From contig NZ_CH902578.1 in assembly GCF_000152805.1 (NCBI RefSeq), positions 3,881,928 through 3,916,864 of the forward strand: 34,937 nt of DNA, given 5' to 3'. Positions 6,806 to 34,937 of this stretch are shown here, piece after piece. The notes under the pieces were generated by a model. The model saw only the letters and a program-made list of their open reading frames with translations, made no database searches and had not been told where the DNA came from. A program made the position numbers and the translations under genes. How positions within the stretch are numbered: the first letter of the stretch is position 1; every line of letters starts with the position of its first letter. The DNA comes from Maritimibacter alkaliphilus HTCC2654. GTDB lineage: Bacteria; Pseudomonadota; Alphaproteobacteria; Rhodobacterales; Rhodobacteraceae.

Positions 6806-7513
6806 TCAGGCGAGCGGGCTTTGGCCGCCGAGCCGGATGAAAAGCGACTCTTCCTCGTCGTTCTTGAAATAGGGCACCGATGCGGGGGCATCGAGATCGG
6901 GAAGGCGGCCCGCGATTTCGGCGAGCACGACCTGCGTGATGAACGGCAGGTCGAAATCGCGCACGTCGCTGAGTGGGATCCATTGAAGGTGGCTGAGTTC
7001 GTCTTCGGCCCGCGAGAAGTCGTCCGGATCGGTCTTGATCCGGGCCGCGTCGGCCACGAAGAACCGCGCGTCGAACCGGCGCGAGCGTCCCGGCGGCGTG
7101 ATCGCGCGGAACACGAAGGCGAGCCCGTCCGGCGAGGGCAGGTAGCCCGCCCTCGCGAAGCCTTCCCATGTCGGCGGCGGGGCGGTCGGCCAGTCGCCGG
7201 GGGTGCCGAGGATCTGCCCGGTTTCCTCGAAAAGCTCACGGATCGCGGCGGCGAGGAGTGCGGGGCCGATCCCGTCCTTGGCGTCCTCACCCAGTCGGGT
7301 GCGGCAGGGCTCGGCCCCCTTGTCGCCCAGCGGCAGACCGTGATCGGCCTTGTCGACCGCGCCGCCCGGAAAGACGAACTTGTTCGGCATGAACGCGGCC
7401 TTGGCACCGCGCTGGCCCATCAGGACGCGCGGCTTCGTGTCCGCGTCACGGATCAGCACGACGGTGGCCGCGTCGCGGATCACCTTGGATTTGTCGATGG
7501 TCTCGGTCGCCAT
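6806..7513 (-). CDS. NUDIX hydrolase
   Basis: This 235-residue protein begins with a beta-strand region (AATVVLIRDADTKPRVLMGQ) and has the GXXXFPGG-type segment KFVFPGGAVDKAD, then a Nudix-box helix AAAIRELFEETG that keeps the metal-binding RExxEE core. NUDIX enzymes hydrolyse nucleoside diphosphates linked to another group. Its length and N-terminal layout resemble NUDT19-like coenzyme A diphosphatases, but the substrate is not determined. It lies 33 bases downstream of the DUF983 gene on the same strand. A DUF983-NUDIX pair is a familiar Rhodobacterales arrangement, so the two are probably co-transcribed. Confidence 0.9.
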   Translation of the reverse strand: MATETIDKSKVIRDAATVVLIRDADTKPRVLMGQRGAKAAFMPNKFVFPGGAVDKADHGLPLGDKGAEPCRTRLGEDAKDGIGPALLAAAIRELFEETGQILGTPGDWPTAPPPTWEGFARAGYLPSPDGLAFVFRAITPPGRSRRFDARFFVADAARIKTDPDDFSRAEDELSHLQWIPLSDVRDFDLPFITQVVLAEIAGRLPDLDAPASVPYFKNDEEESLFIRLGGQSPLA

Positions 7514-7546
7514 GGGCCTCCCTCGCGCGGGGGGGAAGCGCCCGCG

Positions 7547-7975
7547 TCAGTTTTCGCTCTTGGCCTCGGGCGGGGCGAAGCCATGCATCCGCTTGGCCCA
7601 CTGCACCCCCACCATGAGGCCCTTGAACCTTGGCAGAAGGTAGAGGGAGAGCGCAACCGCGAGGATGGCCAGAACCGAGAACAGCACCATCGGATCGGGG
7701 CGGAAGATGGTGAAGCCGTAGTGGAAGAACGGCACCATCAGGTGACCGACCACGAGAATGGTGAGATAGGCCGGGCCGTCGTCGGCGCGTTGGTGATGCA
7801 GTTCCTCGCCGCAGACCGGGCAGGTCTCGCGCACCTTGAGGTAGCTTTTCATCAACGGGCCGGTGCCGCACTGCGGGCACTTGCGCCGCCACCCGCGCCA
7901 GACGGCGGGTTTCAGCGGGCGTTCGTCGCCGGTGTCGGTGGCGCGTGCCAGATCGGCGGTCGTCGAGGCGTCCAT
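7547..7975 (-). CDS. DUF983 membrane protein with N-terminal zinc-ribbon-like cysteines
   Basis: In this 142-residue protein, two CXXC pairs (CPQCGTG and CPVCGEEL, about residues 34-60) form a likely zinc ribbon. Two hydrophobic membrane segments follow (YLTILVVGHLMVPFF and MVLFSVLAILAVALSLYLLP). This is the DUF983 layout; the function of the family is unknown. ATG 7975 is preferred to ATG 7988, which lies in another frame. It is the first gene of a leftward pair with the NUDIX hydrolase, and its promoter must lie in 7976-8198, opposite that of the EF-hand gene. Confidence 0.88.
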   Translation of the reverse strand: MDASTTADLARATDTGDERPLKPAVWRGWRRKCPQCGTGPLMKSYLKVRETCPVCGEELHHQRADDGPAYLTILVVGHLMVPFFHYGFTIFRPDPMVLFSVLAILAVALSLYLLPRFKGLMVGVQWAKRMHGFAPPEAKSEN

Positions 7976-8198
7976 GCGTGTCTCTCAAAGTGGTCTGTTC
8001 GCTTTGGGTTTACCTAGGGACTTCGCGCCGGGTTGCCTATGGCGCGATATGTCGCGCCGCCCGGATCGGCGGAATGATGCGGGTTTTTTTTCGTCATGTG
8101 CGACGGAACCGGGCAGGGTGCCCGTTTGAAGGTCATTCAGGGCGCGAGAAACGCCCGGCTTCAAGGCAGGACACCTTGAACCCCGAGAGGAGTAAGAC

Positions 8199-8861
8199 AT
8201 GAAACGAGCACTCAAGATAGCGGGCTACGGCCTTTTGACCGCATCGGCCCTGACGCTGGCCGCAACCGGCGTGGCCTCGGCCAAGCCCGGCGGGCATCGG
8301 TCGGACGACATGCGCGGCATGATGCGCGGGCCGCAGATGAGTTTCGCCGAACTCGATGCCAATGGCGACGGGGCGCTTACGCCCGAAGATGCCGTGCAAC
8401 GCGCGAGCGAGCGGTTCGCCGAGGCCGATGCCGACAGCGACGGATCGGTCACGCTTCAGGAGCTGACCGATGCCGGTGTGGCGCGGTTCGAAGAGAAGTA
8501 TCAGCAGCGCGTGAACGCCGCGGCGCCGGGCGAAGTGCCGGGGCGTCCGTCGGATGCGCAGGTTCTGGCGCGGGCCGAGAAGATGGCGAGCGGTCTGCTC
8601 CAGCGCGCGGATACCGACGGGAACGGCGCGATCGACGAGGCCGAGATGCAGGCGATGCCGGGTCTCGACCGGCTGATCGCTCGGGCCGATACCGACGATG
8701 ACGGTGCGGTTTCGGAAGAGGAGTTCGATGCGGCACGCCAGAAGGTGCTTTCGCGGATGGACCGGTTCGAAGAGCGCGGCGGGCGTGAAGGCCAATCGAT
8801 GCGGGACGGTCACGGCCCGCGCGGGGGCGAGCGGATGCCGCAGATGCCCGACCGGCACTAA
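8199..8861 (+). CDS. Secreted protein with four EF-hands
   Basis: This 220-residue protein has a signal peptide (MKRALKIAGYGLLTASALTLAATGVASA). Four EF-hand loops follow: D53-D64 (DANGDGALTPED), D77-E88 (DADSDGSVTLQE), D138-E149 (DTDGNGAIDEAE) and D164-E175 (DTDDDGAVSEEE). It should bind Ca2+ or similar hard cations in the periplasm. Loops within each pair are only 12-14 residues apart, shorter than in calmodulin and close to lanmodulin, but the lanmodulin Pro at loop position 2 is absent (Ala or Thr here). The C-terminus is rich in Arg, Gly and Met. It lies directly upstream of, and on the same strand as, the ECF sigma operon. Confidence 0.9.
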   Translation: MKRALKIAGYGLLTASALTLAATGVASAKPGGHRSDDMRGMMRGPQMSFAELDANGDGALTPEDAVQRASERFAEADADSDGSVTLQELTDAGVARFEEKYQQRVNAAAPGEVPGRPSDAQVLARAEKMASGLLQRADTDGNGAIDEAEMQAMPGLDRLIARADTDDDGAVSEEEFDAARQKVLSRMDRFEERGGREGQSMRDGHGPRGGERMPQMPDRH

Positions 8862-8875
8862 GAGTTGCGTGACCG

Positions 8876-8901
8876 GGGCGGGCCCCTTCGGGGGCCTGCC
8901 C
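8876..8901 (+). terminator. UUCG-loop hairpin after the EF-hand gene
   Basis: GGGCGGGCCCC (8876-8886) pairs with GGGGCCTGCCC (8891-8901), with one G-U pair and a TTCG loop. It lies 14 bases after the EF-hand stop and 46 bases before the sigma-factor start. There is no T-run, so it may attenuate or stabilise the transcript rather than fully terminate it. Confidence 0.5.
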
Positions 8902-8947
8902 ATCCGGATTGCGCGCGTGAAGGGGACAGAGTTTACTACCGGACGCG

Positions 8948-9535
8948 ATGGATATGGCATTCGACCAAGCCCGAGACGTCTCGGACGAGGCGCTTCTGGT
9001 CGCCTATGGCAACGGCGACCGTGAGGCGGCCCGGCTTCTGACCGCGCGCCTTGCGCCGCGGGTGCTGGGGTTCGCCGCGCGTATGCTGGGCGGCGACCGG
9101 GCCGAAGCCGAGGACGTGACGCAGGAGGCGATGTTGCGCCTGTGGCGCGTCGCGCCGGAGTGGCGGCAGGGCGAGGCGAAGGTGACGACGTGGTTGTTTC
9201 GCGTCGCCTCGAACCTGTGCACCGACCGGTTGCGCAAGCGCCGAAGCGTGGACATCGACAGCGTGGCGGAACCCGAGGACGATGCGCCGGGGGCCGTGGC
9301 GGGGCTGATCGAAGCCGACCGGGCGCGGGCGCTCGAAGGGGCGCTGGCGCAATTGCCGGACCGGCAAAGGGAAGCGGTGGTGCTCAGGCATCTCGAGGGG
9401 CTGACGAACCCCGAGATCGCCGAAGCGATGGAGATCAGCGTCGAGGCGGTCGAAAGCCTGACCGCCCGGGGCAAAAGGACGCTGGCCGGGATACTCTCCG
9501 GCCGGCGCGAGGAGTTGGGATATGGCTCGGATTGA
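8948..9535 (+). CDS. ECF-type RNA polymerase sigma factor
   Basis: This 195-residue protein has region 2 (LTARLAPRVLGFAARMLGG, then AEDVTQEAMLRLWR, then TWLFRVASNLCTDRLRKRR) and region 4 (ALAQLPDRQREAVVLRHLEG, then LTNPEIAEAMEISVEAVESL) in the standard ECF order, with no sigma-1.1 or region 3. It would direct RNA polymerase to stress promoters. The gene overlaps the next one by 14 bases, and that gene encodes a small membrane protein, as in sigma/anti-sigma pairs. A periplasmic sensor-like gene follows. The trio parallels the CnrH/CnrY/CnrX layout. Confidence 0.93.
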   Translation: MDMAFDQARDVSDEALLVAYGNGDREAARLLTARLAPRVLGFAARMLGGDRAEAEDVTQEAMLRLWRVAPEWRQGEAKVTTWLFRVASNLCTDRLRKRRSVDIDSVAEPEDDAPGAVAGLIEADRARALEGALAQLPDRQREAVVLRHLEGLTNPEIAEAMEISVEAVESLTARGKRTLAGILSGRREELGYGSD

Positions 9536-9917
9536 CGAAAACGGTCGCGACGACGCGATGCTGGACGAGTTCTTCGAAGCGGGGCGGGCCGACGCGCCCG
9601 TGCCGTCCTCGGATCTTCTGGCGCGGATCATGGCGGATGCCGAGGGCGAAGCGGTCGCGCGCGAACATGTAAAGCCCGTGTCGCGCAGCCGGCGCGGATT
9701 GTTCGCGGCGCTGGCGGCGGTGATCGGAGGATGGCCCGCGCTCGCCGGAATGGCCACGGCTGCGGCGGCGGGGGTCTGGATCGGCGCGGCCCAGCCCGAG
9801 GCGCTGACCGTGTTGACGGGTGGTGTGCTTTCCACCTCGGCGTCGGACTTTGAACTGGAAGAGATTTATCCGGGCTATTCGGCCTATGTCACTTATCAGG
9901 AGGCGATGTCGCAATGA
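9522..9917 (+). CDS. Small single-pass membrane protein, likely anti-sigma factor
   Basis: This 131-residue protein begins with an acidic cytoplasmic segment (MLDEFFEAGRADAPVPSSDLL, residues 12-32) that looks like a sigma-binding helix region. One transmembrane segment follows (GLFAALAAVIGGWPALAGMATAAAAGVWIG, about 58-87), then a short periplasmic tail. There is no zinc HXXXCXXC motif. The evidence for anti-sigma function is its position: it overlaps the ECF sigma gene by 14 bases and shares ATGA with a periplasmic sensor-like gene. Homologues are sometimes mislabelled as unrelated enzymes. Function inferred from context. Confidence 0.72.
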   Translation: MARIDENGRDDAMLDEFFEAGRADAPVPSSDLLARIMADAEGEAVAREHVKPVSRSRRGLFAALAAVIGGWPALAGMATAAAAGVWIGAAQPEALTVLTGGVLSTSASDFELEEIYPGYSAYVTYQEAMSQ

Positions 9918-10438
9918 GCGGGACAGACACATCGACGCGGCGCGGGTTTCCGATCTGGGCCAAGGCGCTTCTTGCCGTATCGCTCGCGCTGAACCTGCTT
10001 GTGGCGGGTGTGGTGGTCGGGGCGCGGTTCGACGGTGACGGGCCGAAGGGTCCGCCGGGCCGCTCGACACGGGATGCGCGGTCGTCCTTCGATCCTGCGC
10101 TGGGCCCGTTCTCGCGGTCGCTGCCCGATCCGTACCGTGAGCAGGCCGTCCAAGCGTTGCGCGAACGGGCGGGGGATTACCGCGACAACCGGGCGCAACT
10201 GGCCGATCAACTGGCCACGATGCTGACGATCCTGCGGGCGGAGGAGTTCGACGAGGAGGCGCTGCGGGCTGTCATGGCCGCGCAAACCGAAGTGTTCGAA
10301 CGGCGTGGCGAGATCGGGCGCGACGTGGTCGTGGAGCAGATCGCCGCGATGTCCGCCGACGAACGTGCGGCGCTGGCGGCGCGTATGGAAGAGGGGTTCA
10401 AACGGGCGATGGACCGGGCCAAGCCGCCGAAACGCTAG
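9914..10438 (+). CDS. Periplasmic heavy-metal-sensor-like protein (CnrX/ZraP/CpxP type)
   Basis: This 174-residue protein has an N-terminal membrane anchor (WAKALLAVSLALNLLVAGVVVGARF, about 14-38) followed by an Arg/Glu-rich, almost wholly helical periplasmic domain. That matches the antiparallel hairpin of the CnrX/ZraP/Spy family. No His/Met cluster comparable to the CnrX metal site is obvious, so it may sense something other than Ni/Co, such as envelope stress. It begins in an ATGA overlap with the anti-sigma-like gene. Its stop TAG shares CTAG with the stop of the convergent pleD-like gene. Confidence 0.8.
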   Translation: MSGTDTSTRRGFPIWAKALLAVSLALNLLVAGVVVGARFDGDGPKGPPGRSTRDARSSFDPALGPFSRSLPDPYREQAVQALRERAGDYRDNRAQLADQLATMLTILRAEEFDEEALRAVMAAQTEVFERRGEIGRDVVVEQIAAMSADERAALAARMEEGFKRAMDRAKPPKR

Positions 10439-11805
10439 GCCGCGCTGCGTTCGGGCGCGCAGGTCACGATGTTGCGCCCCCCGGCCTTGGACACGTAAAG
10501 CGCCCGGTCGGCCTGATCCCACAACTCGCGCGGGTTGCTTATCGAGTTGGAACACAGCGCCATGCCGATGGACAGGGTGACCGAAATCGGGGTCTGTCCG
10601 TCACGGGCGTCGACCGGGGTATCGGCGACGGCGGCCCGCAGGCGCTCGGCGGTCAGCCGCGCCTCGTCCCCGGTGGTGTCGCGCAGCACGACAAGGAATT
10701 CCTCGCCCCCGATGCGCGCGACGAGGTCGATCTCGCGCAAGGTGGCTTTCAGGCGGCGCGCGGTCTCCACCAGCACGTCGTCGCCGGCGAGATGGCCGAA
10801 GCGGTCGTTGACCGATTTGAAGTGGTCGAGGTCCAGCAACAGCATGGCGCAGGATCGGCGCGTGGCCCCATGTTCCTTCTGCATCCGGGCGAGGTAGCCG
10901 TCGGCGTAGCGGCGGTTGAACAGCCCCGTGAGCGGATCGCGCAACGCCTCGTCCAGTTGATCCTCGACGCGGGCGCGCAGCCGGTCGGTTTCCCGTTTCC
11001 GGTCCAGAAGCCGGTCCAGACGCGCGACCAGTTCCGCGCTGGAGAAGGTGCCGCGCATCACGGCGTCCGCCCCGAAGTCGAAAGCCATGTCGGCGGTGTC
11101 GTCACGGTCGCGTGGCGTGTGCAGCAGGACGAGCGCGTGGCGCGTCGACGGTCGGGCGCGCAATTCCGCGACAAGCCCAAGCGCCGCGCCGGGGTTGCCC
11201 GGTGTCAGCGCGATGACATAGGCATCGCCCTCGGCCTCCGGTTCCAGCGCGGTCGCAGACGTGGCGAGCGTCACCTTGGCACCCGAGGCGGCGGCGATCC
11301 GGCTGCGCCAGCCCGGCCCCTCGGTCGCGGTGGGGGGGACCACCGTGATGCGGGCGCGTGGCGCGAACCCGGCGGATGCTTCGGCGAATGCGTCGGCTGC
11401 GCCCAGGGGCTGACGGCGCAAAAGCTCCTCCCGCTCGGCGCGTTTGCGGGTCAGGTTGCGCAGAAGGGCGAGCAGAAGCGCCTCGCCCGGAAGGTCGGTC
11501 AGGCATTCCTCGGCCCCAGCCTCCAGCGCGGCGATCCGGGCCACCCTGTCGTCGGCCGCGCCGTAGATCACGACGGGCACCTCGGCCAGATCGGGCCGGG
11601 CCTTCAGGGCGCGGCAGGCGGCGATACCGCCACCGGGAAAGTCGATGTCGATCAGGATGACATCGGGTTTGTCGGCGATGGCGCGCGCCAGCAGCTCGTC
11701 CCGCGTGCGCGCCTGTGTCACGCTGTGCCGCGCCGCCGCCAGCCGCGCCTTGAGCGCGATCCGGTCGGTGACGAGGTCGTCTGCGATGATGATGCGTCCG
11801 CCCAT
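10435..11805 (-). CDS. pleD: PleD-type diguanylate cyclase response regulator
   Basis: This 456-residue protein has a receiver domain 1 (about 1-120) with acidic pocket ADD (9-10) and phospho-acceptor D53 (ILIDIDFPGGG), a receiver-like domain 2 (about 150-270), and a C-terminal GGDEF domain (about 290-450). The active-site signature is ARIGGEEF. REID five residues upstream is an intact RxxD inhibitory site, so the enzyme should make c-di-GMP and be product-inhibited. In receiver 1 the usual Lys near the KP motif is replaced (CLTDLPGEAL). In PleD, phosphorylation drives dimerisation and activation. The gene is monocistronic, convergent with the sigma operon and divergent from the DUF3572 gene. 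Confidence 0.92.
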   Translation of the reverse strand: MGGRIIIADDLVTDRIALKARLAAARHSVTQARTRDELLARAIADKPDVILIDIDFPGGGIAACRALKARPDLAEVPVVIYGAADDRVARIAALEAGAEECLTDLPGEALLLALLRNLTRKRAEREELLRRQPLGAADAFAEASAGFAPRARITVVPPTATEGPGWRSRIAAASGAKVTLATSATALEPEAEGDAYVIALTPGNPGAALGLVAELRARPSTRHALVLLHTPRDRDDTADMAFDFGADAVMRGTFSSAELVARLDRLLDRKRETDRLRARVEDQLDEALRDPLTGLFNRRYADGYLARMQKEHGATRRSCAMLLLDLDHFKSVNDRFGHLAGDDVLVETARRLKATLREIDLVARIGGEEFLVVLRDTTGDEARLTAERLRAAVADTPVDARDGQTPISVTLSIGMALCSNSISNPRELWDQADRALYVSKAGGRNIVTCAPERSAA

Positions 11806-11903
11806 TCTTTTCTGCTCGATTTTGTATTAAGTGCTCCGCGATTGGGTAATCTTTGCCCAAGAAGTCTTAACAAAGGGTTTCTCCCGGTCGGGATGAGGGG
11901 CAG

Positions 11904-12182
11904 ATGAAGCAGGAAATGGCCGAAACCATCGGTTTACAGGCACTTGGCTGGCTTGCGGGCAACGATGACCTGCTCCCGGTCTTTCTGGGTTCGACGGGCG
12001 GTGACGTGGGCGCGTTGCGGGAAGGGGCAGGTGATCCGCAGTTCCTTGCCGCCGTGCTCGACTTCATCACGATGGACGATGCCTGGGTCGTGGCGTTCTG
12101 CGATGCGTCCGGGCTGGACTATGCGCAGCCGATGCAGGCCCGGCAGGCGTTGCCCGGCGGGGGCGAGGTGAACTGGACATGA
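11904..12182 (+). CDS. DUF3572 protein
   Basis: This 92-residue soluble protein matches DUF3572, a small alphaproteobacterial family of unknown function. Recognisable parts are AETIGLQALGWLAGNDDLLPVF at the start (quoted in part: ALGWLAGND), GDPQFLAAVLDFI in the middle and the acidic DDAWVVAFCDASGLD near the end. It overlaps the HAD gene by an ATGA, so the pair is translationally coupled. In relatives it often lies next to pleD, as here. Confidence 0.88.
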   Translation: MKQEMAETIGLQALGWLAGNDDLLPVFLGSTGGDVGALREGAGDPQFLAAVLDFITMDDAWVVAFCDASGLDYAQPMQARQALPGGGEVNWT

Positions 12183-12871
12183 ACCGCAAGGTGGATGCGA
12201 TCCTGTTCGACAAGGATGGCACGCTGTTCGATTTCGATGCGACCTGGACGGTCTGGGCGAATACGGTCATCGAACGTCTTGCACAGGGCGACCCCGCGCT
12301 GGCGGACGCGATCGCGGAGGCGGTCGAGTTCGACCGGGCCACGGGCCGGTTTCGGGACGCATCGGTCGTGATCGCCGGGACGCCCGACGATGTCGCCAAG
12401 GCCGTTGCGCCGGTTCTGGGCATCGCGCCGGATGTGCTGATCGGTGGCATGAACGCCGCCGCCGCGACCGCGCCGATGGCCGAAGCCGTGCCTTTGGTGC
12501 CGCTTCTCACGGGACTGCGGGCCAAGGGCCTCAAACTCGGCGTGGCGACCAACGATGGCGAGGTTCCGGCGCGTGCGCATCTGGGAAGCGCAGGCGTTGT
12601 CGAGGCTTTCGATTTCATCGCCGGGTCCGACAGCGGCTGGGCGCCCAAACCGGACCCGGCCATGTGTCTGGCCTTTGCCGAGGCCATGAACCTAGCACCG
12701 CACCGGATCGCGATGGTCGGCGACAGCCTGCACGATCTTGTCGCCGCCCGCGCAGCCGGGATGCACGCGGTGGCGGTGCTGACGGGTCACGCCGATGAGC
12801 GCCGACTCACCGGACATGCGGATGTCGTTCTGCCCGACATCGGTTACCTCCCCGGTTGGTTGGGGTTTTGA
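12179..12871 (+). CDS. HAD-family hydrolase (phosphoglycolate-phosphatase-like)
   Basis: This 230-residue protein has all four HAD motifs: I, LFDKDGTLFDFD with nucleophile D11 and acid D13; II, GVATNDGE; III, the Lys of GWAPKPDP; IV, MVGDSLHDL. The helical cap between motifs I and II (about 20-95) is of C1 type, as in Gph-like phosphatases. The substrate is probably a small phosphoester and is not determined. It is the second gene of an operon with DUF3572, joined by a 4-base overlap. Confidence 0.9.
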   Translation: MNRKVDAILFDKDGTLFDFDATWTVWANTVIERLAQGDPALADAIAEAVEFDRATGRFRDASVVIAGTPDDVAKAVAPVLGIAPDVLIGGMNAAAATAPMAEAVPLVPLLTGLRAKGLKLGVATNDGEVPARAHLGSAGVVEAFDFIAGSDSGWAPKPDPAMCLAFAEAMNLAPHRIAMVGDSLHDLVAARAAGMHAVAVLTGHADERRLTGHADVVLPDIGYLPGWLGF

Positions 12872-13004
12872 GCGCACCACCTGAGGTGGATCGCGTTAAC
12901 CTATTGATAACATTTGTTTTGAATTCTGGGCCGAGAACGCCGACTTTGCGCGCGGTCGGTGCTTCGTTCGCCTGATTTTTCCGGTTTCTTAACCCCGCAA
13001 CTCT

Positions 13005-13016
13005 AGTCTTAAGACT
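13005..13016. promoter_or_regulatory. 12-bp perfect palindrome before the H-NOX-like gene
   Basis: AGTCTTAAGACT is self-complementary and ends 17 bases before the ATG at 13034, within the unusually AT-rich gap 12890-13033. It could be an operator or overlap the -10 region of the H-NOX/GGDEF operon. No regulator is identified. Confidence 0.4.
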
Positions 13017-13033
13017 TAATTGAGGGTTCCAGC

Positions 13034-13642
13034 ATGCATGGCATTATTTGCCGTTCTTTCGAAATGTTCGTGAGGTCCGCCTACGGGGCGGAGCTATGGG
13101 GCGCGGCGCTGGATCAACTCGACCTGCCGTTCGACGGGTTCGAGACGATGTTCCAATACGACGACCATCTGGCGGATCGTCTCGTGTCCTGCTGCGCCAT
13201 CCTTCTGGGCAAACCGCGCGACACGCTTCTGGAAGACTTCGGAACCTTTCTCATCACCGCAACGCCGTCCGGGCGGGTGCGCCGCCTGCTGCGGTTCGGC
13301 GGTCTCGACTACGAGGATTTCCTGCATTCGCTGGAAGACCTGCCGGGCCGTGTCGCGCTCGCGGTTCCCGATATCGGCCTGCCGGATCTCGTGCTCTACG
13401 AAATCGAACCCGGACGCTTCGAACTCGCCTGCCGAAGCAAGGTCAGGGGCGCAGGGCATGTCATTGCGGGGCTCTTGCGGGCGATGGCGGACGACTACGG
13501 CGCGCTAGTGCTGCTCGACCACGTGGGCCGCCGCCGAAGTGTCGAGATCATCGACATCCATCTTCTCGAATCCTCTTATTCCGAAGGGCGCGGCTTCGAT
13601 CTGAGCGAAGGCGGGCTGACGGCGGGGGGGCAGGTCGGATGA
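13034..13642 (+). CDS. H-NOX (heme NO-binding) domain protein, degenerate heme pocket
   Basis: This 202-residue protein follows the H-NOX fold from its first residues (MHGIICRSFEMFV; then LLGKPRDTLLEDFG at 57-70; FGGLDYEDFLHSLEDLP at 88-104). H-NOX proteins bind heme and sense NO or O2 to control a partner cyclase or kinase. Aligned by eye with the well-known cyanobacterial H-NOX, the proximal heme-ligand His falls on Pro104 (LEDLPGRV against LDNLHARV). The propionate-binding YxSxR motif reads C133-R-S135-K-V137, leaving only the Ser. The conserved heme-kinking Pro is kept (VPDI, P112). It probably binds no heme in the usual way. It overlaps the downstream HNOBA-GGDEF gene (ATGA), so it should regulate that cyclase. 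Confidence 0.88.
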   Translation: MHGIICRSFEMFVRSAYGAELWGAALDQLDLPFDGFETMFQYDDHLADRLVSCCAILLGKPRDTLLEDFGTFLITATPSGRVRRLLRFGGLDYEDFLHSLEDLPGRVALAVPDIGLPDLVLYEIEPGRFELACRSKVRGAGHVIAGLLRAMADDYGALVLLDHVGRRRSVEIIDIHLLESSYSEGRGFDLSEGGLTAGGQVG

Positions 13643-14664
13643 ACGACATGACACCGCTGCGCGTGACCGTTTCGGGCCGCGGACTGGATCGGCTCATGCC
13701 CCTGCACCTGCTGCTCGATATGGAGGGGCGCATCGTGCAGGTCGGCCCCACGATGGCCAAGGTTCTGCAAGGGCAGACCTTTCTCGGCCAGCGGATGCTG
13801 GACCTGTTCGACCTCAAACGCCCGCGCGAGGACGAGATTTTGGCGCTGCTCGAAAAGGGGGCGACCGGCAAGGTGCTGCTGCGCCTGCGGGCCTATCCCC
13901 AGACGCAATTCATCGGAAGTGCGGTGACCTTGCCCGACCACGCGGGTGTGCTGGTCAACCTGTCCTTCGGCATCTCGACCTTCGACGCGGTGCGCGATTT
14001 CCGGCTCGCCGGCTCGGATTTCGCGCCGACCGACCTGACGCTCGAACTGCTCTATGTCGCCGAGGCGAATGCGGCGGCGATGGCCGAGAGCCGGGCCTTG
14101 AACGAACGGTTGCACGGAGCCAAGCAACTCGCTGAATCCGAAGCGCATACGGATGCGCTGACCGGGCTGCGCAACCGGCGGGCGCTGGATCAGGAACTCC
14201 ACCGGCTGATCGAACGCCGGGTTCCGTTCACGCTCGCCCATCTCGATCTCGATTTCTTCAAGTCGGTGAACGACACGCTGGGCCACGCGGCTGGCGATTT
14301 CGTTCTGGGTCAGGTGGCCCGCGTTCTGGTGGAAGAGACGCGAACGAACGATGTGGTCGCACGGGTCGGCGGCGACGAATTCGTCCTCCTTTTCATCGGG
14401 TTGACGGATCGGGAGCGGATTTCGGCGCTCGCGGGTCGGATCATCGGACGGCTTGAGGAACCCATGCCGTTCCATGGCACGCCCTGTCGGGTGTCCGGGT
14501 CCATCGGCCTCGTGCTGTCGACGCAATACGAGCGGCCGGATGCCGAACGGATCATGGCGGATGCGGATACGGCGCTCTACGCGTCGAAAGAGTCGGGTCG
14601 GTCGCGGTTCACCTTCATCAACCCGAAGATCGGCACGATGGAATATGGTCCGAGGGCCGGGTGA
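13639..14664 (+). CDS. HNOBA-GGDEF diguanylate cyclase, H-NOX partner
   Basis: This 341-residue protein begins in the ATGA shared with the H-NOX-like gene. Residues about 15-135 form a PAS-like HNOBA (H-NOX-associated) domain (LMPLHLLLDMEGRIVQVG, then GQRMLDLFDLKRPRE). A helical linker (about 136-170) leads to a GGDEF domain with TDALTGLRNRRALDQ, catalytic GGDEF at 244-248 and the RTND inhibitory site at 235-238. All catalytic features look intact, so it should synthesise c-di-GMP in the cytoplasm. The open frame extends upstream through the H-NOX gene but is only an antiphase shadow there. No EAL domain is present. Confidence 0.92.
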   Translation: MNDMTPLRVTVSGRGLDRLMPLHLLLDMEGRIVQVGPTMAKVLQGQTFLGQRMLDLFDLKRPREDEILALLEKGATGKVLLRLRAYPQTQFIGSAVTLPDHAGVLVNLSFGISTFDAVRDFRLAGSDFAPTDLTLELLYVAEANAAAMAESRALNERLHGAKQLAESEAHTDALTGLRNRRALDQELHRLIERRVPFTLAHLDLDFFKSVNDTLGHAAGDFVLGQVARVLVEETRTNDVVARVGGDEFVLLFIGLTDRERISALAGRIIGRLEEPMPFHGTPCRVSGSIGLVLSTQYERPDAERIMADADTALYASKESGRSRFTFINPKIGTMEYGPRAG

Positions 14665-27800: not shown

Positions 27801-27828
27801 TCCTCCCGCTGCACAAAGCGAACCAACT

Positions 27829-27857
27829 GACCCCGCGGCGCTCGTGGGGTCTTTTTT
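27829..27857 (+). terminator. Strong intrinsic terminator ending the PQQ cluster
   Basis: GACCCCGCG (27829-27837) pairs with CGTGGGGTC (27843-27851), with one G-U pair and a 5-base loop, followed by TTTTTTA. It lies 28 bases after the dehydrogenase stop and marks the end of the PQQ cluster. Confidence 0.88.
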
Positions 27858-28255: not shown

Positions 28256-29179
28256 ATGACGAAATTGGTCCTTTTGCACAAAGCAGACTCGATTTACGAT
28301 GATGAACCCGACGTCGTTTACGACTTTCCCCGCAGCTATCTGAAAGCCGTGCAAGAGGCTGTCGGCGATTGGGTCGTTTACTACGAGCCGGTTAAAGCCG
28401 GGCCGCGCGGGTATTTCGCCGTCGCCAAGATCCAGCGCGTGATCCCCAAGCCTGGGGTCGAGGGACGGTTTCTCGCTATGATCGAGCCTGGAAGCTTCTT
28501 GCCGCTCGATACCGAAGTGCCACGGCTGATCAATGGCCGCCCCTTGGAACAGGCACTGATGGAGGCTGACGGGACCCCCAAAAAGGGCGGTGCCGTGCAA
28601 CTGGCGGTGCGGCGATTGCCGGACGAGGATTTCGCGCGGATCGTGCGACTGGGCCTGCCCGAAGATCTCGAGCGTCAGGAGGCGGTGCGGTATGATCCCG
28701 CGGGAGCCGAGGTGGCGGAAGAGGCTGCGATCTTTGAGCGGCCGGTGCTGGAGCGTCTGACCCGGCGACCCTACCGCGACGTGGCTTTCCGCCGAAAGGT
28801 GCGTGAGGCCTATGATTATCGCTGCGCCATGTCAGGACTGAGGCTCCGCAACGGGGGAGGGCGCCCCGAGGTGCAGGCAGCGCACATCAGACCTGTCGAG
28901 CACAAAGGGAGCGACTCTGTGCGAAACGGGCTTGCCCTGTCCGGCACCTTGCATTGGATGTTCGATCGTGGCCTGATCTCGGTCGCTGACGACAGTGAGA
29001 CGATCCTTGTGTCGCGTAACAAGGTGCCGGGCGACGTTGTGGATCGGTTGCTGCGTCCAAATGGAAAGCTCTGGAAGCCGGACGAAAAGAGAGACTGGCC
29101 CCATCCAGTAAACTTGGCGTGGCATCGTGAGAATGTTTTTGGTCAAATAGCTACCGAGGGTCCCGCTCCCTGGGATTAA
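28256..29179 (+). CDS. HNH endonuclease with a putative N-terminal reader-like domain
   Basis: This 307-residue protein carries at its C-terminus (about 180-250) an HNH nuclease: YDYRCAMSGLRLR, H210 (AAHIRPVEHKG), N224 (SVRNGLAL) and H233 (TLHWMFDRGLISV). This family cuts DNA with one metal ion. The N-terminal about 110 residues (VGDWVVYYEPVKAGPRGYFA, then VAKIQRVIP) look like a compact beta-barrel reminiscent of PUA/EVE/SRA-type modified-base readers, but this is only an impression. ATG 28256 with GGTGGG upstream is preferred to an earlier in-frame ATG at 28214. It lies 16 bases before the giant helicase gene, so it is probably co-transcribed. Confidence 0.88.
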   Translation: MTKLVLLHKADSIYDDEPDVVYDFPRSYLKAVQEAVGDWVVYYEPVKAGPRGYFAVAKIQRVIPKPGVEGRFLAMIEPGSFLPLDTEVPRLINGRPLEQALMEADGTPKKGGAVQLAVRRLPDEDFARIVRLGLPEDLERQEAVRYDPAGAEVAEEAAIFERPVLERLTRRPYRDVAFRRKVREAYDYRCAMSGLRLRNGGGRPEVQAAHIRPVEHKGSDSVRNGLALSGTLHWMFDRGLISVADDSETILVSRNKVPGDVVDRLLRPNGKLWKPDEKRDWPHPVNLAWHRENVFGQIATEGPAPWD

Positions 29180-29195
29180 ACGGTAGCCTGACCGC

Positions 29196-32100
29196 ATGAA
29201 GAATATAATTACCAGAGGCTTATCAAGAGCCCTTGCCCGCGGTCGGCCGCAGACTCCGGAGCCTCCGGAGACCGAACCGCCGACCAGCGGTGCGTTTCAG
29301 AAACCGCGGGACAAGTATGAAATCTTGGGCCGGTGCCTTTCCGTAGACCTGGAGATCGACCCCAATGAAGCTCGCATTTTTGCGATCGCAGCGGTTCCTG
29401 AAGGTGACGGAGATGGTATCGTCCATCGAAAGGGCGATCCTCGGCACGCGCTTGAGAAACTCGACCTTTTCTGCGCGGGCTTTGCCCACATCATCGGCCA
29501 CAACATCCTACGTCACGATCTGCCGCATCTCACGGCTGTATCGCCAAGATTTTCAAAGCTTGCGGAGGGCGCGATTGACACGCTCTGGCTCAATCCGCTC
29601 GCCTTCCCGCGCAACCCGTATCACCATCTGGTCAAGCACTATCGAGATGGGCGGCTACAGAGCGGACACGTCAACGACCCAGAGTATGATGCGCGGCTGG
29701 TGTTCGAGGTCTTGCGCAACCAGATCGAGGCCTTCGATGCGCTGAATACAGCCTCGCCGGAGACAATGCTGGCCTATCACTGGCTGACATGTCGAGGCAT
29801 GCACAGCGCGGGGTTTGATCGATTGTTCTCGGACATTCGAGGCGCAGCGGTGCCGTCCGAAGCCGAGGCGCATGCCGCGATCCGCGCTCTTCTGAAGAAC
29901 GCGGCCTGCGGGGCGCAGGTCGACGCGGTGCTCGAGCGCCTCTCGGACGCGGACCTTGGATGGCCGATGGCGTACGCGCTGGCGTGGATTTCGGTCGCCG
30001 GCGGAGACTCCGTCATGCCGCCGTGGGTGCGGGCACAGTTTCGCGATGCCGCGCGTTTGGTCAAAGACTTGCGGGATTCGAATTGCCGCAACCCCCATTG
30101 CGCCTATTGCGCCGAGCATAACGATCCGACCCGCGCGCTGGAACGCTGGTTCGGGTTCCCGTCGTTCCGGCCTGAACCGGTCGACGCCGACGGGCGGCCC
30201 TTGCAGGAAAAGATCGTCGCGACCGCGATGGAAGGTGAGCACCTGTTAGGGATCCTTCCGACGGGCACTGGGAAATCCATCTGCTACCAGATCCCGGCGC
30301 TATCGAGGTTCGATAAAACGGGGGCGCTGACCGTCGTCATTTCCCCGTTGGTCGCCCTCATGGCGGACCAGGTTCAGGGTTTGGTGCGCGCAGGGATATC
30401 TTCGGCGGTCACGATCAATGGGCTTTTGTCGCTCCCCGAACGACAGGACGCGCTCGACAAGGTTCGCATGGGCGACGCGGCGATCCTGCTCATTTCGCCT
30501 GAGCAGCTGCGCTCGACCACGGTGCGGTCGGTCTTGGCTCAACGTGAGGTCGGGCTTTGGGTGCTGGACGAGGCGCACTGCGTTTCAAAATGGGGGCACG
30601 ATTTCCGGCCCGACTATCGCTATGTCTCGCGCTTCATCAAGGAAAGCTCGGGCGACGACCCCGCGCCGGTTCTGTGTCTCACGGCCACCGCCAAACCGGA
30701 TGTGGTTCAGGATATCCGTAGCCATTTTCAAGAGCGGCTTGGGGCCGAGTTGACTTTGCTTGACGGCGGTGCGTCGCGCTCGAACCTGAGTTTTCAGGTG
30801 CTGCCGACCCAGCGGTCCACCAAACTGACCGATATCCTTGATGCAATTGAGGCCGGGTTGCCTCGCGAGGGCGCATCGGGTGCGGTTGTCTACTGCGCGA
30901 CCCGGAGTGCCACCGAACGTGTGGCAGAGTTCCTGAAACAGCAGGGGATCGCTGCCGAACGATATCACGCAGGCCTCAGCGCGGACGACAAGCGCGAGAT
31001 CCAGGAGGATTTCCGCGTCGGCAATCTAAGGGTTATCGCCGCGACCAACGCCTTTGGCATGGGGGTCGACAAGCCGGATATTCGTCTGGTGGTGCATGGC
31101 GATGTGCCGGGGTCGTTGGAAAATTATATGCAAGAGGCCGGGCGGGCCGGTCGTGACCGCGACCCTGCGCAGTGCGTGCTGTTGTTCAACACCGAAGATG
31201 TGGACCGACAATTCAGCCTCAGTGCGAGGTCCCGACTGGCCCGCCACGAAATCGGTGCGATTTTGAAGGCGCTTCGTCGTCTTGATGTGAGGACCGGCAA
31301 AGAGGGCAAGATCGTCGCGACCCCCGGAGAGATCGTCCATGAGGAGAAAGACCGGGACTTCCAGCGCGACAGCAACACCGACGACACGCGGGTGAAGACG
31401 GCGGTGGCATGGCTTGAAGAGGCCCATCTGTTGAACCGCGAGGAAAACAGGGTGCAGGTTTTTCCTGCCTCGCTTCGGGTCCGCAGCATGGCCGAGGTCC
31501 GCGAGATTTTGGCGGCGGCCGACATAACCCAGCGGCGGCGTGATGATCTGACGGCGATCGTGCAGCACATCGTCAACGCGCCTCAGGAAGAGGGGATTAC
31601 GACGGACGAGCTTTGCGGGATCAGCGGTCTGACGGTGTCGGGCGTGCGCAAAGCGCTGGCGGACCTTGAGTCGCTTGGCATTGCCAAAGACGACACCAAC
31701 ATCACCATATTCGTTCATGTTCGGGTGGAAAACGCGTCACCGAAGAGGTTCGAGGCCGCGTCGCGGCTGGAAGCGGACCTTATCGAAATCTTGCGCGAAC
31801 AAGCGCCTGATGCGGAGATTGACGAAGTGCTGCCGTGCCATCTCGCCTCGGTCGCGCAGGCTTTGCGAGAGCGTGGTCATGCCTCGGTCCGGCCCGACAT
31901 CGTCGAGGGGCTCTTGCGTGGAATTGCGCAGGATGGCCGCGACATGGAAGGCGGGCGCGGTAACATCGGCCTGCGCAAGGCGTCCAAAGGCAGCCTCATG
32001 GTACGGTTGCAACGCTCTTGGGCGATCATTGATCAAACCGCGCAAGTGCGCCGGCAAGCAGCCGAGCGTCTGGTGACCCATCTGATCGAAAAGGTGCAGG

Positions 32101-34409
32101 TGGGCCTCAAGGGCAAGGATGTTGCGGTCGAGACGACGCTGGGAGACCTGCTTGCTGCGATTAACAGCGATGCGCTGTTGCGGGCTTCGGTCAATGATCC
32201 GTCAAAACTGATGGATCGGGCGCTCTTATGGCTGCACGAGCAACAGGTGGTCACACTGGGCAAAGGCCTGTCCGTGTTCCGCTCTGCCATGACACTGCAT
32301 ATCAACAAAAAGGGGGGCGGGTTCACGGCTCATCACTTTGCACCCCTTGAGGATCACTACGGCGAACAGACCATACAGACCCACGTCATGGCGGCCTATG
32401 CGGCCAAGGGTATGGAGGATATCGAGACCGCGCAAAAGCTGGCTCATGACTATTTCGCCATGGATGAAGCCGACTTTATGAAGGCGTGGATGCCTGGGCG
32501 AATGTCAGAGTTTCGCCGCCAAGCGACGCCTCAGACCTATGCAGAAATCGTGGATGACTTGGGCAACACGACCCAAGCCCAGATCGTGCGCGACGACCGC
32601 GAACAGACAAATGTCCTTGTGCTCGCGGGGCCGGGATCGGGCAAGACACGCGTCCTTGTTCACCGTGTCGCTTATCTTGTCAGGATCAAGCGAGAGGACC
32701 CAAATGGCATTCTGGTGCTGGCCTACAATCGCCACGCGGCCGCGGAAATCCGCGAGCGCCTTCGCCGCCTGATCGGGGATGATGCGCGGTTTGTGACTGT
32801 GCTGACCATCCACGCTTTGGCAATGCGGTTGGTTGGGGCGAGCTTTGCTGGAAGGGCCGGGGCTGAGACGCCAGACTTTGACACGCTCTTGACCGACGCT
32901 GCCCGCCTTTTGCGGGGAGACGGACTGGACAAGGTCGAAGCAGAAGCGCTGCGCGAGACGCTTATCCAAGGATTCCGCTGGATCCTGGTGGACGAATATC
33001 AGGACGTGGGCCCCGAAGAGTATGCGCTGATCGCGGCGGTGGCCGGTCGTAGCATCGATGATCCCGATCAACGCATATCACTCTTCGCGGTCGGGGACGA
33101 CGATCAGAACATCTACTCCTTCGCCGGGGCCTCGGTGCGCCACATTCGACAGTTCGAAGCGGACTACTCGGCAAAGCCGGTTTTCCTGACGGACAATTAC
33201 CGTTCGTCAGGAAATATCGTCAGTGCCGCGAACGCCGTCATCGAGGGCGCGCGCGAAAGGATGAAGACCGGGCATGGGATCACTTTAGACCAGTCGCGCC
33301 GCAAGGACCCGCCAGGGGGCGTGATGGAAAAGCTCGACCCGGTTGCGCAAGGGCGGGTCCAGATTCTCGCTTGTCCTGCCGGGAACGAGGCTCAAGCGCT
33401 TGCGGCAGTCGACGAGATGGTCCGCCTTTCAAAGCTCGTCCCTGATTGGAGCTGGAACCGTGCCGCGATCATCTCGCGCGATTGGCGCAAACTCCTGCCG
33501 GTCCGGGATTTTGCCGAAGCGCTGGGCATTCCGGTCGAAATGGCGAACGAGAACCTGCCGGGCGTCTGGCGAACCCGTGAGATGCAGGCTTTTATCCGCG
33601 GCTTGCGTGAGGGGCATGGTCGAATGGTGAGCTTGGGCGATCTCACGGATCTGCTCAACACCATACCTTCAAGCCGCTGGACCGACCAGATCGGCGAGGG
33701 CCTTGGTGTATTCGCGCGCGAAGTGGATGGTAAAGCGATCCCTTCGCCCGACGTGATCGAATGGTTCGCAGAATGGTCGCGCGATTCATGGGGCGAACAG
33801 CGAGGGCTGAAGCTCCTAACCGCGCATCGGGCTAAGGGGTTGGAGTTCGACGATGTCGTCATCATGGACGGGGGCTGGGAACGGCCCTCGCGGAACGAAG
33901 ATCAGGACGCGCCGAGGCGCCTTTTCTACGTCGCCATGACGCGTGCGCGGCGAAACCTCATCGTTATGAGCAACGATCATCACGAGTATCTGCCCACAAT
34001 GTCGCCTGCGGTTGTCACGCGCTATGTAGAGCCGGATATCGCAGCAATGCCCGGACCGCGTCGGTTCTTCCAGTCGCCAGAGATGCGCATGGTCGATCTG
34101 TCTTTCGCAGGCCGTCAGAAGGATCAGCATCCCGTGCACCGCGCGATCTCTGAGGCGACGGTGGGAGACGCGATTCAGCTCAAGATGGCTGGAGGTCGAT
34201 GGCAGATCGAAGACATGTCGGGCCGGGTGCTTGGTCGTATGGCAAAGGCATTTGCGCCACTCGGAGGCACTAGGTTCGTCTCCGGTCAGATCGCCGCAAT
34301 TATCCGCCGGCGCAAAGATGATGCTGGTGAGAAATTTCACCACATGCTGCGCAGGGAGGACTGGGAGGTGGTCGTCCCGGACTTGGTATTTGAGCAAAGC
34401 AAATTATAA
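29196..34409 (+). CDS. Exonuclease-like / RecQ / UvrD triple-domain helicase, 1737 aa
   Basis: Residues about 45-175 resemble a DnaQ-type DEDD exonuclease: D51 and E53 (SVDLEID), GHNILRHD with D108, and DPEYDARLVFEVL with D165; the third motif is atypical. A small CX4CX2C cluster (C297, C302, C305) follows. A RecQ-type SF2 helicase then has Walker A TGTGKS (356-361), DEAH (458-461), CLTATAKPDV and QEAGRAGRDRD (from 646), with winged-helix-like segments to about 1050. The C-terminal third is a UvrD/Rep-type SF1A helicase: GPGSGKT (1145-1151), VDEYQDV (D1266), GDDDQNIYSFAGAS, and LTAHRAKGLEFDDVV (about 1540). Each ATPase core looks intact. It should unwind and degrade DNA, in repair or in defence. 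Partner of the HNH gene upstream. Codon use is somewhat less GC-rich than in the PQQ genes. Confidence 0.9.
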   Translation: MKNIITRGLSRALARGRPQTPEPPETEPPTSGAFQKPRDKYEILGRCLSVDLEIDPNEARIFAIAAVPEGDGDGIVHRKGDPRHALEKLDLFCAGFAHIIGHNILRHDLPHLTAVSPRFSKLAEGAIDTLWLNPLAFPRNPYHHLVKHYRDGRLQSGHVNDPEYDARLVFEVLRNQIEAFDALNTASPETMLAYHWLTCRGMHSAGFDRLFSDIRGAAVPSEAEAHAAIRALLKNAACGAQVDAVLERLSDADLGWPMAYALAWISVAGGDSVMPPWVRAQFRDAARLVKDLRDSNCRNPHCAYCAEHNDPTRALERWFGFPSFRPEPVDADGRPLQEKIVATAMEGEHLLGILPTGTGKSICYQIPALSRFDKTGALTVVISPLVALMADQVQGLVRAGISSAVTINGLLSLPERQDALDKVRMGDAAILLISPEQLRSTTVRSVLAQREVGLWVLDEAHCVSKWGHDFRPDYRYVSRFIKESSGDDPAPVLCLTATAKPDVVQDIRSHFQERLGAELTLLDGGASRSNLSFQVLPTQRSTKLTDILDAIEAGLPREGASGAVVYCATRSATERVAEFLKQQGIAAERYHAGLSADDKREIQEDFRVGNLRVIAATNAFGMGVDKPDIRLVVHGDVPGSLENYMQEAGRAGRDRDPAQCVLLFNTEDVDRQFSLSARSRLARHEIGAILKALRRLDVRTGKEGKIVATPGEIVHEEKDRDFQRDSNTDDTRVKTAVAWLEEAHLLNREENRVQVFPASLRVRSMAEVREILAAADITQRRRDDLTAIVQHIVNAPQEEGITTDELCGISGLTVSGVRKALADLESLGIAKDDTNITIFVHVRVENASPKRFEAASRLEADLIEILREQAPDAEIDEVLPCHLASVAQALRERGHASVRPDIVEGLLRGIAQDGRDMEGGRGNIGLRKASKGSLMVRLQRSWAIIDQTAQVRRQAAERLVTHLIEKVQVGLKGKDVAVETTLGDLLAAINSDALLRASVNDPSKLMDRALLWLHEQQVVTLGKGLSVFRSAMTLHINKKGGGFTAHHFAPLEDHYGEQTIQTHVMAAYAAKGMEDIETAQKLAHDYFAMDEADFMKAWMPGRMSEFRRQATPQTYAEIVDDLGNTTQAQIVRDDREQTNVLVLAGPGSGKTRVLVHRVAYLVRIKREDPNGILVLAYNRHAAAEIRERLRRLIGDDARFVTVLTIHALAMRLVGASFAGRAGAETPDFDTLLTDAARLLRGDGLDKVEAEALRETLIQGFRWILVDEYQDVGPEEYALIAAVAGRSIDDPDQRISLFAVGDDDQNIYSFAGASVRHIRQFEADYSAKPVFLTDNYRSSGNIVSAANAVIEGARERMKTGHGITLDQSRRKDPPGGVMEKLDPVAQGRVQILACPAGNEAQALAAVDEMVRLSKLVPDWSWNRAAIISRDWRKLLPVRDFAEALGIPVEMANENLPGVWRTREMQAFIRGLREGHGRMVSLGDLTDLLNTIPSSRWTDQIGEGLGVFAREVDGKAIPSPDVIEWFAEWSRDSWGEQRGLKLLTAHRAKGLEFDDVVIMDGGWERPSRNEDQDAPRRLFYVAMTRARRNLIVMSNDHHEYLPTMSPAVVTRYVEPDIAAMPGPRRFFQSPEMRMVDLSFAGRQKDQHPVHRAISEATVGDAIQLKMAGGRWQIEDMSGRVLGRMAKAFAPLGGTRFVSGQIAAIIRRRKDDAGEKFHHMLRREDWEVVVPDLVFEQSKL

Positions 34410-34635: not shown

Positions 34636-34937
34636 ATGAAGAGAAGCCGTTTCAGCGAAGAGCAGATCATTGGCATCCTGAAGGAGCACCAGGCTGGGCT
34701 CGGCGCGAAGGAGCTGTGCCGCAAGCACGGGATCAGCGACGCGACGTTCTACAAGTGGCGATCGAAGTATGGCGGCATGGAGGTTTCCGATGCCCGGCGG
34801 CTGAAGGCGCTGGAGGCAGAGAATGCCAAGCTGAAGAGTTGGAGGGATCGGAAAAGGCCCCAGTGGGGCGTTTTCCCCGAACAACGCTGGCCGAGCAGAT
34901 GCTCGACGTCGCCACGCTGAAGGAGATGTTGGGAAAA
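34636..34937 (+). pseudogene. IS3-family transposase orfA, frame disrupted
   Basis: The first about 67 codons (MKRSRFSEEQIIGILKEHQA, then ELCRKHGISDATFYKWRSKYGG, quoted in part, then RLKALEAENAKLK) are a typical IS3 OrfA with helix-turn-helix and leucine-zipper start. After LK the frame runs into unrelated residues and a stop at 34918-34920. The expected continuation LAEQMLDVATLKEMLGK resumes at 34887 in a different frame. So about 50 bases replace the 3-6 that relatives have, and OrfA is broken. The normal OrfA end is at the window edge. Confidence 0.75.
34837..34886. repeat. About 50-base hairpin-forming insert inside orfA
   Basis: The intruding stretch contains GGAAAAGGCCCC and GGGGCGTTTTCC around AGT, a 12-base stem with one mismatch, and is flanked by GTTG and CAAC. 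It breaks the transposase frame. It could be a tiny palindromic element or a duplication-type mutation. Confidence 0.5.

Follow-up and report, generated by a model that had tools for sequence, protein, structure and literature searches.

A mobile exonuclease-RecQ-UvrD giant next to an HNH gene in Maritimibacter alkaliphilus: a probable, so far undescribed component of bacterial immunity

The 34,937-nucleotide stretch of Maritimibacter alkaliphilus HTCC2654 analyzed here (contig NZ_CH902578.1, positions 3,881,928 to 3,916,864; hereafter the window) carries near its right end a gene for an HNH nuclease and a gene for a 1737-amino-acid (aa) protein, hereafter the giant, which probably belongs to bacterial immunity in a role that has so far gone undescribed. 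An earlier note on this DNA had proposed the two genes as a candidate defence system, and its description of them holds: the open reading frames (ORFs) at 28256-29179 and 29196-34409 are co-directional and 16 bases apart with the HNH gene upstream, the first encodes an HNH domain, and the second joins an exonuclease-like part, supported by a DEDD fold of the modelled N-terminus, to RecQ-type (superfamily 2, SF2) and UvrD-type (superfamily 1, SF1) helicases with Pfam helicase domains. The two genes comprise the following features.

28256-29179, + strand: HNH gene, ATG to stop, 307 aa
28256-28696, + strand: PUA-superfamily-like N-terminal domain, residues ~1-147 (Foldseek, moderate-confidence model)
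28823-28984, + strand: HNH catalytic domain, residues 190-243 (Pfam HNH_2, PF13391, 4.9e-11)
29196-34409, + strand: giant, DEDD exonuclease-RecQ-UvrD protein, 1737 aa, with full-length relatives in at least six phyla
29319-29753, + strand: predicted DEDD 3'-5' exonuclease fold, residues 42-186 (D51, E53, D108, D165, N160)
30084-30110, + strand: conserved Cys cluster C297/C302/C305 (Cys-x4-Cys-x2-Cys), between the exonuclease and the RecQ core
30138-31232, + strand: RecQ-type SF2 helicase core, residues 315-679 (TIGR00614, 298.9 bits, cut-off 219.8)
32565-33971, + strand: UvrD-type SF1 helicase, residues 1124-1592 (PF00580, 8.9e-40; PF13361)

No Pfam domain was matched by the N-terminus of the giant in the window, and DNA_pol_B_exo1 was matched by two of 20 relatives (best 5.9e-4). 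A profile built from 20 relatives found the solved chains of S. aureus DinG (E-value 3.1e-4) and TREX-like exonucleases. The earlier note had proposed predicting the structure of residues 1-300; an AlphaFold2 model of residues 26-328 from a 22-sequence input (pLDDT, the predicted local distance difference test, 87.7) matched DEDD exonuclease folds best. Its top Foldseek matches in PDB were the TREX1 homologue Plex9.1, Pol II, S. aureus DinG, and T7 polymerase, with REXO2 and RNase T inside the best 30, and no PDB match had an E-value below 0.001. The four acidic residues of the DEDD family are present together with the exonuclease fold and are conserved among 73 full-length relatives (D51 and E53 in 69/69 aligned, D108 in 72/72, and D165 in 71/72). 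The His or Tyr of motif III that marks DEDDh or DEDDy enzymes is replaced in the giant by Asn160, which appears to correspond to the DEDDh His and is Asn in 71 of the 72 aligned relatives. As modelled, the giant N-terminus is thus predicted to be a DEDD exonuclease fold.

The helicase motif residues tested, both RecQ and UvrD, are intact in all 73 full-length relatives. Membership of the first module in the RecQ family is indicated by the TIGR00614 score above cut-off together with these motif residues, and Pfam places DEAD/Helicase_C at residues 334-654; matches to the giant include the RecQ of WRN. The giant scored below the cut-off of the housekeeping RecQ equivalog (351.7 vs 640.2), and no Pfam match to RQC or HRDC was found in it at E <= 0.1. 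Judging by these scores, it is RecQ-like and distinct from the housekeeping RecQ equivalog. The RecB and AddA equivalog cut-offs were likewise missed (recB, 65.7 vs 696.05; addA_alphas, 95.9 vs 860.75). The cysteines C297, C302, and C305 are kept in 70, 70, and 72 of the 73 relatives, respectively, and may bind a metal or an iron-sulphur cluster.

For the HNH protein, the better reading is a predicted PUA/EVE-like-HNH type IV restriction enzyme that is separate from the giant. The structure of its N-terminus, another prediction the earlier note had suggested, came out as PUA superfamily in a model of moderate confidence (pLDDT 66.9 overall, ~58-91 over the N-terminal domain, and low over the HNH part). 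Foldseek matched this domain to MJECL36 (2.5e-4) and PH1033 (3.0e-4), to Atu2648, YTH, and ASCH domains (probability 0.97-1.00), to TagI at rank 25 (probability 0.54), and likewise to the DrmA and Lon N-domains; we take several of these to be EVE or PUA domains. Both features of the PUA/EVE-like-HNH type IV class, a PUA-superfamily fold at the N-terminus and an HNH domain at the C-terminus, are therefore found in this protein. Among the related enzymes VcaM4I, TagI, and ScoMcrA, VcaM4I is laid out, according to PMC7897488, with PUA at 1-147 and HNH at 179-309, and the 307-aa protein shares this layout (PUA fold at ~1-147 and HNH after ~179). It differs from the ScoMcrA type in reaching only 88.3 bits against the NF045808 (PT-DNA_restrict) cut-off of 180, over the C-terminal half only. 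In 292 genomes sampled from the order of the window, Rhodobacterales as judged from named relatives such as L075 (Tritonibacter, the same contig as G225), the HNH family is present in 64, 51 of which lack the giant, and in 81 plasmid records; two of these plasmid regions were viewed and had no giant annotated within 8 kb.

Distribution of the giant is patchy. Across the same 292 genomes it occurs in 41, belonging to 35 of 113 genera (45 matches, 35 of them near full length, with split or partial copies in six genomes), and in a class-wide sample in 10 of 385 genomes, two of which were already among the 41. Full-length relatives are found in at least six phyla, namely Pseudomonadota, Bacteroidota, Bacillota, Verrucomicrobiota, Campylobacterota, and Cyanobacteriota (on plasmids), a range that is a lower bound drawn from at least 80 loci; a partial copy cut by a contig end is present in a metagenome-assembled genome of Acidimicrobiaceae. 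A quick tree of the relatives has long branches. On plasmids, 45 records match the giant and 19 cover at least 80% of it, and 12 full-length copies lie on IMG/VR contigs. None of the 25 matching INPHARED phage records covers 80% of the giant, the best 15 of them spanning at most 25% of the query, in the RecQ core. At least six copies, including that on the 3.99-Mb contig of the window, are on contigs longer than 2 Mb and are probably chromosomal. The surroundings vary as well: at 73 loci, 184 of 1000 neighboring genes had a relative at another locus and 816 had none, and 20 flanking families recurred at three or more loci, the largest being a mixed cluster at 12 loci, followed by the HNH family at 7. 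The earlier note had held that homologues mostly alone at a conserved syntenic core locus would speak against a defence role; the sporadic occurrence, unconserved flanks, and plasmid copies show a different picture, that of a variable and mobile gene. One genome, G233, has on another contig (L054:6005-11518; G233:C10) a further gene resembling the giant, with a product of 1838 aa that is 37% identical over the best segment.

The window itself shows the same variability, with three further features around the pair.

27809-27810, no strand: end of colinearity with the genus relatives G298 and G294 (blastn against the window region)
27829-27857, + strand: intrinsic terminator of the upstream gene (terminator scan), a 10-pair stem GACCCC...GGGGTC followed by a T run
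34636-34937, + strand: OrfA-like transposase reading frame at the right edge of the window (ORF 34636-34920, read by eye), which we take to be of the IS3 type

The terminator, which the scan places at 27829-27851, and the less GC-rich DNA described in the earlier note were both recovered (GC 59-63% across 28-34 kb vs 62-69% before). The gene upstream of the terminator was read by eye as xoxF-like, and of the seven other genomes of the genus that were searched, two (G298 and G294) have this stretch; both follow the order of the window as far as position 27809 and diverge beyond, so the HNH-giant pair starts at a synteny break. In these two genomes a segment homologous to window positions 6824-14616 directly follows the xoxF-like gene in reversed order, and the region has therefore been rearranged or has received an insertion in one lineage.

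Genes next to the giant often resemble known defence genes. Taking as a neighbor the nearest frame of at least 200 aa on each side, we found PADLOC matches (E <= 1e-8) for 14 of 40 neighbors (42 had been planned) at 22 loci that do not come from the order genomes sampled and were hand-picked from those with flanks, including type I restriction endonuclease, methyltransferases, IetA, SoFic, AbiEi, candidate PDC families, and others. Two of the 14 are weak (L037 and L084), the L168 PrimPol match may be a plasmid primase, and second neighbors were scanned at L168 in place of the nearest; the left neighbors of L157 and L161 were left out, as were L077, L086, L158, L162, and L163, among other loci. 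Inside Rhodobacterales, 7 of 20 neighbors matched (taking roughly each third locus, 10 of 35 in all and none with an intact HNH neighbor), three of them weakly (L045 on both sides and L067), and the McrC neighbor in L039 was missed by PADLOC and found by PF10117. For comparison, one of 20 neighbors of housekeeping RecQ genes matched (10 of 13 loci prepared; L097, L101, and L111 left out). The difference is visible when all neighbors are pooled (21/60 vs 1/20, p 0.009), when the set from outside the order is taken without viral contigs (9/27 vs 1/20, p 0.03), and in Rhodobacterales alone (7/20 vs 1/20, p 0.04).

Fifteen plasmid regions around the giant were fetched, three of which were without annotation. 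Clear defence neighbors, which include type I restriction-modification together with an HNH gene, were annotated in two of the 12 others, from Allochromatium (type I restriction-modification) and Thiothrix (CRISPR I-D); the Scytonema, Nostoc, and Pseudanabaena plasmids, with helicase-containing sets by annotation, are less sure. Toxin-antitoxin type genes lie within ~8 kb on the Sulfitobacter, Cereibacter, Rhizobium, and Aliarcobacter plasmids, and nothing defence- or toxin-antitoxin-like was annotated in the remaining regions of the 12. On the Scytonema NIES-4073 plasmid (L036:1-7254), the giant is preceded by genes annotated as helicase-like, hypothetical, phospholipase D, hypothetical, and pentapeptide repeat, a set that from annotation we judge to be DISARM-like. 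In G023 (L067:2210-6921), two overlapping genes lie beside the giant; the product of the second, 1149 aa long, resembles ATPases of the SbcC/YhaN type by its sequence and weakly matches LmuB.

Because these scans gave type IV restriction matches directly beside the giant at L039, L048, and L051, we examined type IV genes across all 41 giant-bearing Rhodobacterales genomes. Their closeness to the giant is non-random: 13 of 42 type IV copies lie within 10 kb, compared with 0.27 expected at random. SauUSI, according to PMC12707154, is a phospholipase D (PLD) nuclease-helicase-SRA enzyme; five of the six SauUSI-like copies are within this distance, four of them within 1.5 kb (G087, G208, G125, and G115) and the fifth at 7.6 kb (G201), and SauUSI-like genes co-occur with the giant in six genomes (1.97 expected, p 0.007). 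A conserved SauUSI-giant operon was rejected, the two genes being on the same strand in G087, G208, and G201 and on opposite strands in G115 and G125, and the identities fail to separate co-inheritance from re-acquisition. PUA-HNH copies lie within 10 kb in 5 of 15 cases, and McrC copies in 3 of 11 (0.5 kb in G087, 8.3 kb in G099, and 9.6 kb in G023), a count that excludes a 61-residue fragment in G031; two further McrC copies in G175 are 18 and 22 kb away. A gene adjoining the giant in G008 reads from its sequence as SRA-HNH and matches a type IV model at 2.7e-16. By contrast, none of 31 HsdS genes is within 20 kb of the giant (0/31 vs 13/42, p 0.0004), the nearest being at 35 kb (G046) and 52 kb (G115), and neither the eight AbiEii copies nor the ten Mrr copies, which are counted among the 42 type IV copies, lie near it (for Mrr, none within 10 kb). 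A generic defence island is therefore disfavored and the type IV link remains.

A protein of ~1089 aa that looks like a RecB-type nuclease fused to an SF1 helicase was also observed near McrB, McrC, and the giant in G099, G023, and G087 (L068:8967-16023, L304:2529-10723, and L308:565-7837). It is present in five of the 41 genomes, and in a fourth genome, G280, it shares a contig with McrC; it is possible that this protein, McrB, and McrC form a three-gene McrBC variant.

The claim of the earlier note that no named defence system has this composition is in line with our searches. Among the best 25 of 97 PADLOC matches no model covers the giant over its full length, the helicase core alone being covered; this includes Dpd, PsyrTA, and Gabija, for which the cores of DpdF, PsyrT, and GajB resemble either the RecQ or the UvrD part but leave the exonuclease uncovered. 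The best 25 of 58 NCBIfam families and Pfam gave domain-level matches only. In full-text searches limited to open-licence PMC papers we recognized no description of an exonuclease-RecQ-UvrD protein, and the main text of PMC13092281 does not mention RecQ, UvrD, helicase, exonuclease, or DnaQ. Several known proteins share parts of the design. Like WRN, which joins a DEDD exonuclease to RecQ, the giant has an N-terminal exonuclease fold followed by a RecQ core, but it carries Asn in place of the DEDD-family Tyr or His, shows no Pfam RQC or HRDC, and has an additional complete UvrD helicase. Among solved chains S. aureus DinG is closest to the exonuclease profile, and it also ranks high among the fold matches; its helicase is of the XPD/DinG type with no UvrD part. 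RecBCD/AddAB and, as reported, Hachiman (HamAB) are comparable helicase-nuclease machines that work at DNA ends or damaged DNA; the giant differs from them as a single polypeptide with a predicted DEDD nuclease, with scores below the recB and addA cut-offs, and with two motors of families that both move 3'->5'. It is thus a new combination of known modules within a known kind of function.

The defence reading of the earlier note stands as regards the mobile locus, the defence-type neighbors, and the lack of a full-length PADLOC match, but not as regards the HNH nuclease and the helicase forming one system. Were they an obligate two-component system, the 16-base spacing, which is also kept in sister genomes, and a second, distant pair in G252 (46% identical) would be readily accommodated. 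Among the 292 genomes, however, adjacency is limited to the clade of the window and G252. This clade comprises seven loci, three of them with an intact HNH gene (the window, G090, and G233); the gene is broken in one (G176), reduced to its tail in two (G288 and G076), and undetected on a Sulfitobacter plasmid, where some similarity persists in the DNA preceding the giant. A whole giant is present at all seven loci, and since its HNH neighbor has decayed or is undetected in four of them, it evidently persists without that neighbor. More broadly, the HNH query matches only 8 of 80 loci around giant relatives, most giant loci, in six phyla, being without this gene. Where a genome has the giant, ten of its family's 15 HNH copies in total are found away from it. 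Most HNH-bearing genomes lack the giant altogether, and the two families co-occur in 13 of the 292 genomes (9.0 expected, p 0.08). An obligate pair was therefore rejected as the default and is considered very improbable.

The main rival is that the giant is an accessory DNA-repair or recombination enzyme, WRN-like with an extra UvrD motor, serving stalled forks, double-strand breaks, or self-inflicted type IV cuts. This would fit the domain order of WRN, the WRN RecQ among the matches, the repair and proofreading exonucleases among the Foldseek neighbors of the N-terminus, and the large SbcC/YhaN-like ATPase, named by reading its sequence, on the other side of the giant in G023 (with a contig-end piece in G099). 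The giant is nevertheless not a core gene (41/292), most of its neighboring genes are without a relative at another locus (816/1000), copies occur on plasmids and viral contigs, and its neighbors are defence-like with type IV genes close by, all of which make a repair role rather unlikely. Mobility also raises the thought that the giant serves the mobile elements themselves, as a plasmid or conjugative helicase-nuclease for replication, resolution, or inter-element competition. In keeping with this are the 19 plasmid records covering at least 80% of it, the full-length IMG/VR copies, and the partition genes near it in Aliarcobacter (together with a replication gene) and Bacteroides finegoldii (together with genes for single-stranded DNA-binding protein, SSB); at least six copies are nonetheless on contigs above 2 Mb, and the flanking genes are unconserved, so that we regard this explanation as improbable, though more likely than the obligate pair.

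On balance, we lean toward a reading in which the giant, encoded by one horizontally mobile gene, belongs to immunity islands and acts as a helicase-exonuclease, destroying DNA that has first been opened by modification-dependent restriction. A type IV enzyme would cut modified DNA first, and the giant would load at the break, with DNA ends, nicks, or forks as the most likely points of entry. Helicases of the RecQ and UvrD families usually translocate 3'->5', the direction in which DEDD exonucleases also degrade DNA; the two ATP-driven motors, both of 3'->5' families, may thus separate the duplex strands and the N-terminal DEDD domain may digest the exposed 3' strand, completing the destruction of foreign DNA already cut and contributing to a putative anti-phage effect. 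The partner in the window would, by position, be the PUA/EVE-like-HNH enzyme, and in other genomes a SauUSI-like, McrBC, or SRA-HNH enzyme, such that the HNH gene would represent one exchangeable upstream cutter and not an obligate subunit.

Several observations weigh against this proposal. A type IV gene lies within 10 kb in only 13 of the 41 Rhodobacterales genomes (15 with two HNH remnants), and just 5 of 31 HNH_2 matches in giant-bearing genomes are that close. SauUSI, McrBC, SRA-HNH, and HNH queries matched none of nine loci in eight other alphaproteobacterial genomes, several of whose contigs are short, and other phyla and plasmids yielded only one plasmid HNH match ~7 kb off, a more distant HNH gene four genes from the giant at L091, and a weak McrB match at L087. 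Copies from the same clade are non-independent, which makes the Poisson figures look more significant than they are. The order that revealed the type IV trend is also the one used to test it, and the PADLOC control amounts to only 20 proteins, from other taxa. Two plasmids carry partition genes within ~8 kb of the giant (one with a replication gene and one with SSB genes). Finally, the presence of Asn where DEDDh enzymes have His could indicate that catalysis is weak or altered.

If our preferred explanation of the giant is true, type IV restriction would be served by a mobile partner dedicated to clearing DNA, a clean-up usually credited to host RecBCD/AddAB. In any case, the three-module architecture is now named: plasmid records annotate it simply as RecQ helicase, and no searched defence model covers it whole (best 25 of 97 matches). 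More tentatively, and with less confidence than in the preferred explanation, the giant may represent an undescribed immune protein family, a one-gene, Asn-type second-stage executioner that plasmids and other mobile DNA have carried into at least six phyla, and that would clear foreign DNA opened by unrelated modification-dependent restriction enzymes, working with many exchangeable sensors (PUA-HNH, SRA-HNH, SauUSI-like, and McrBC), in which case one effector would have been combined with many different sensors.

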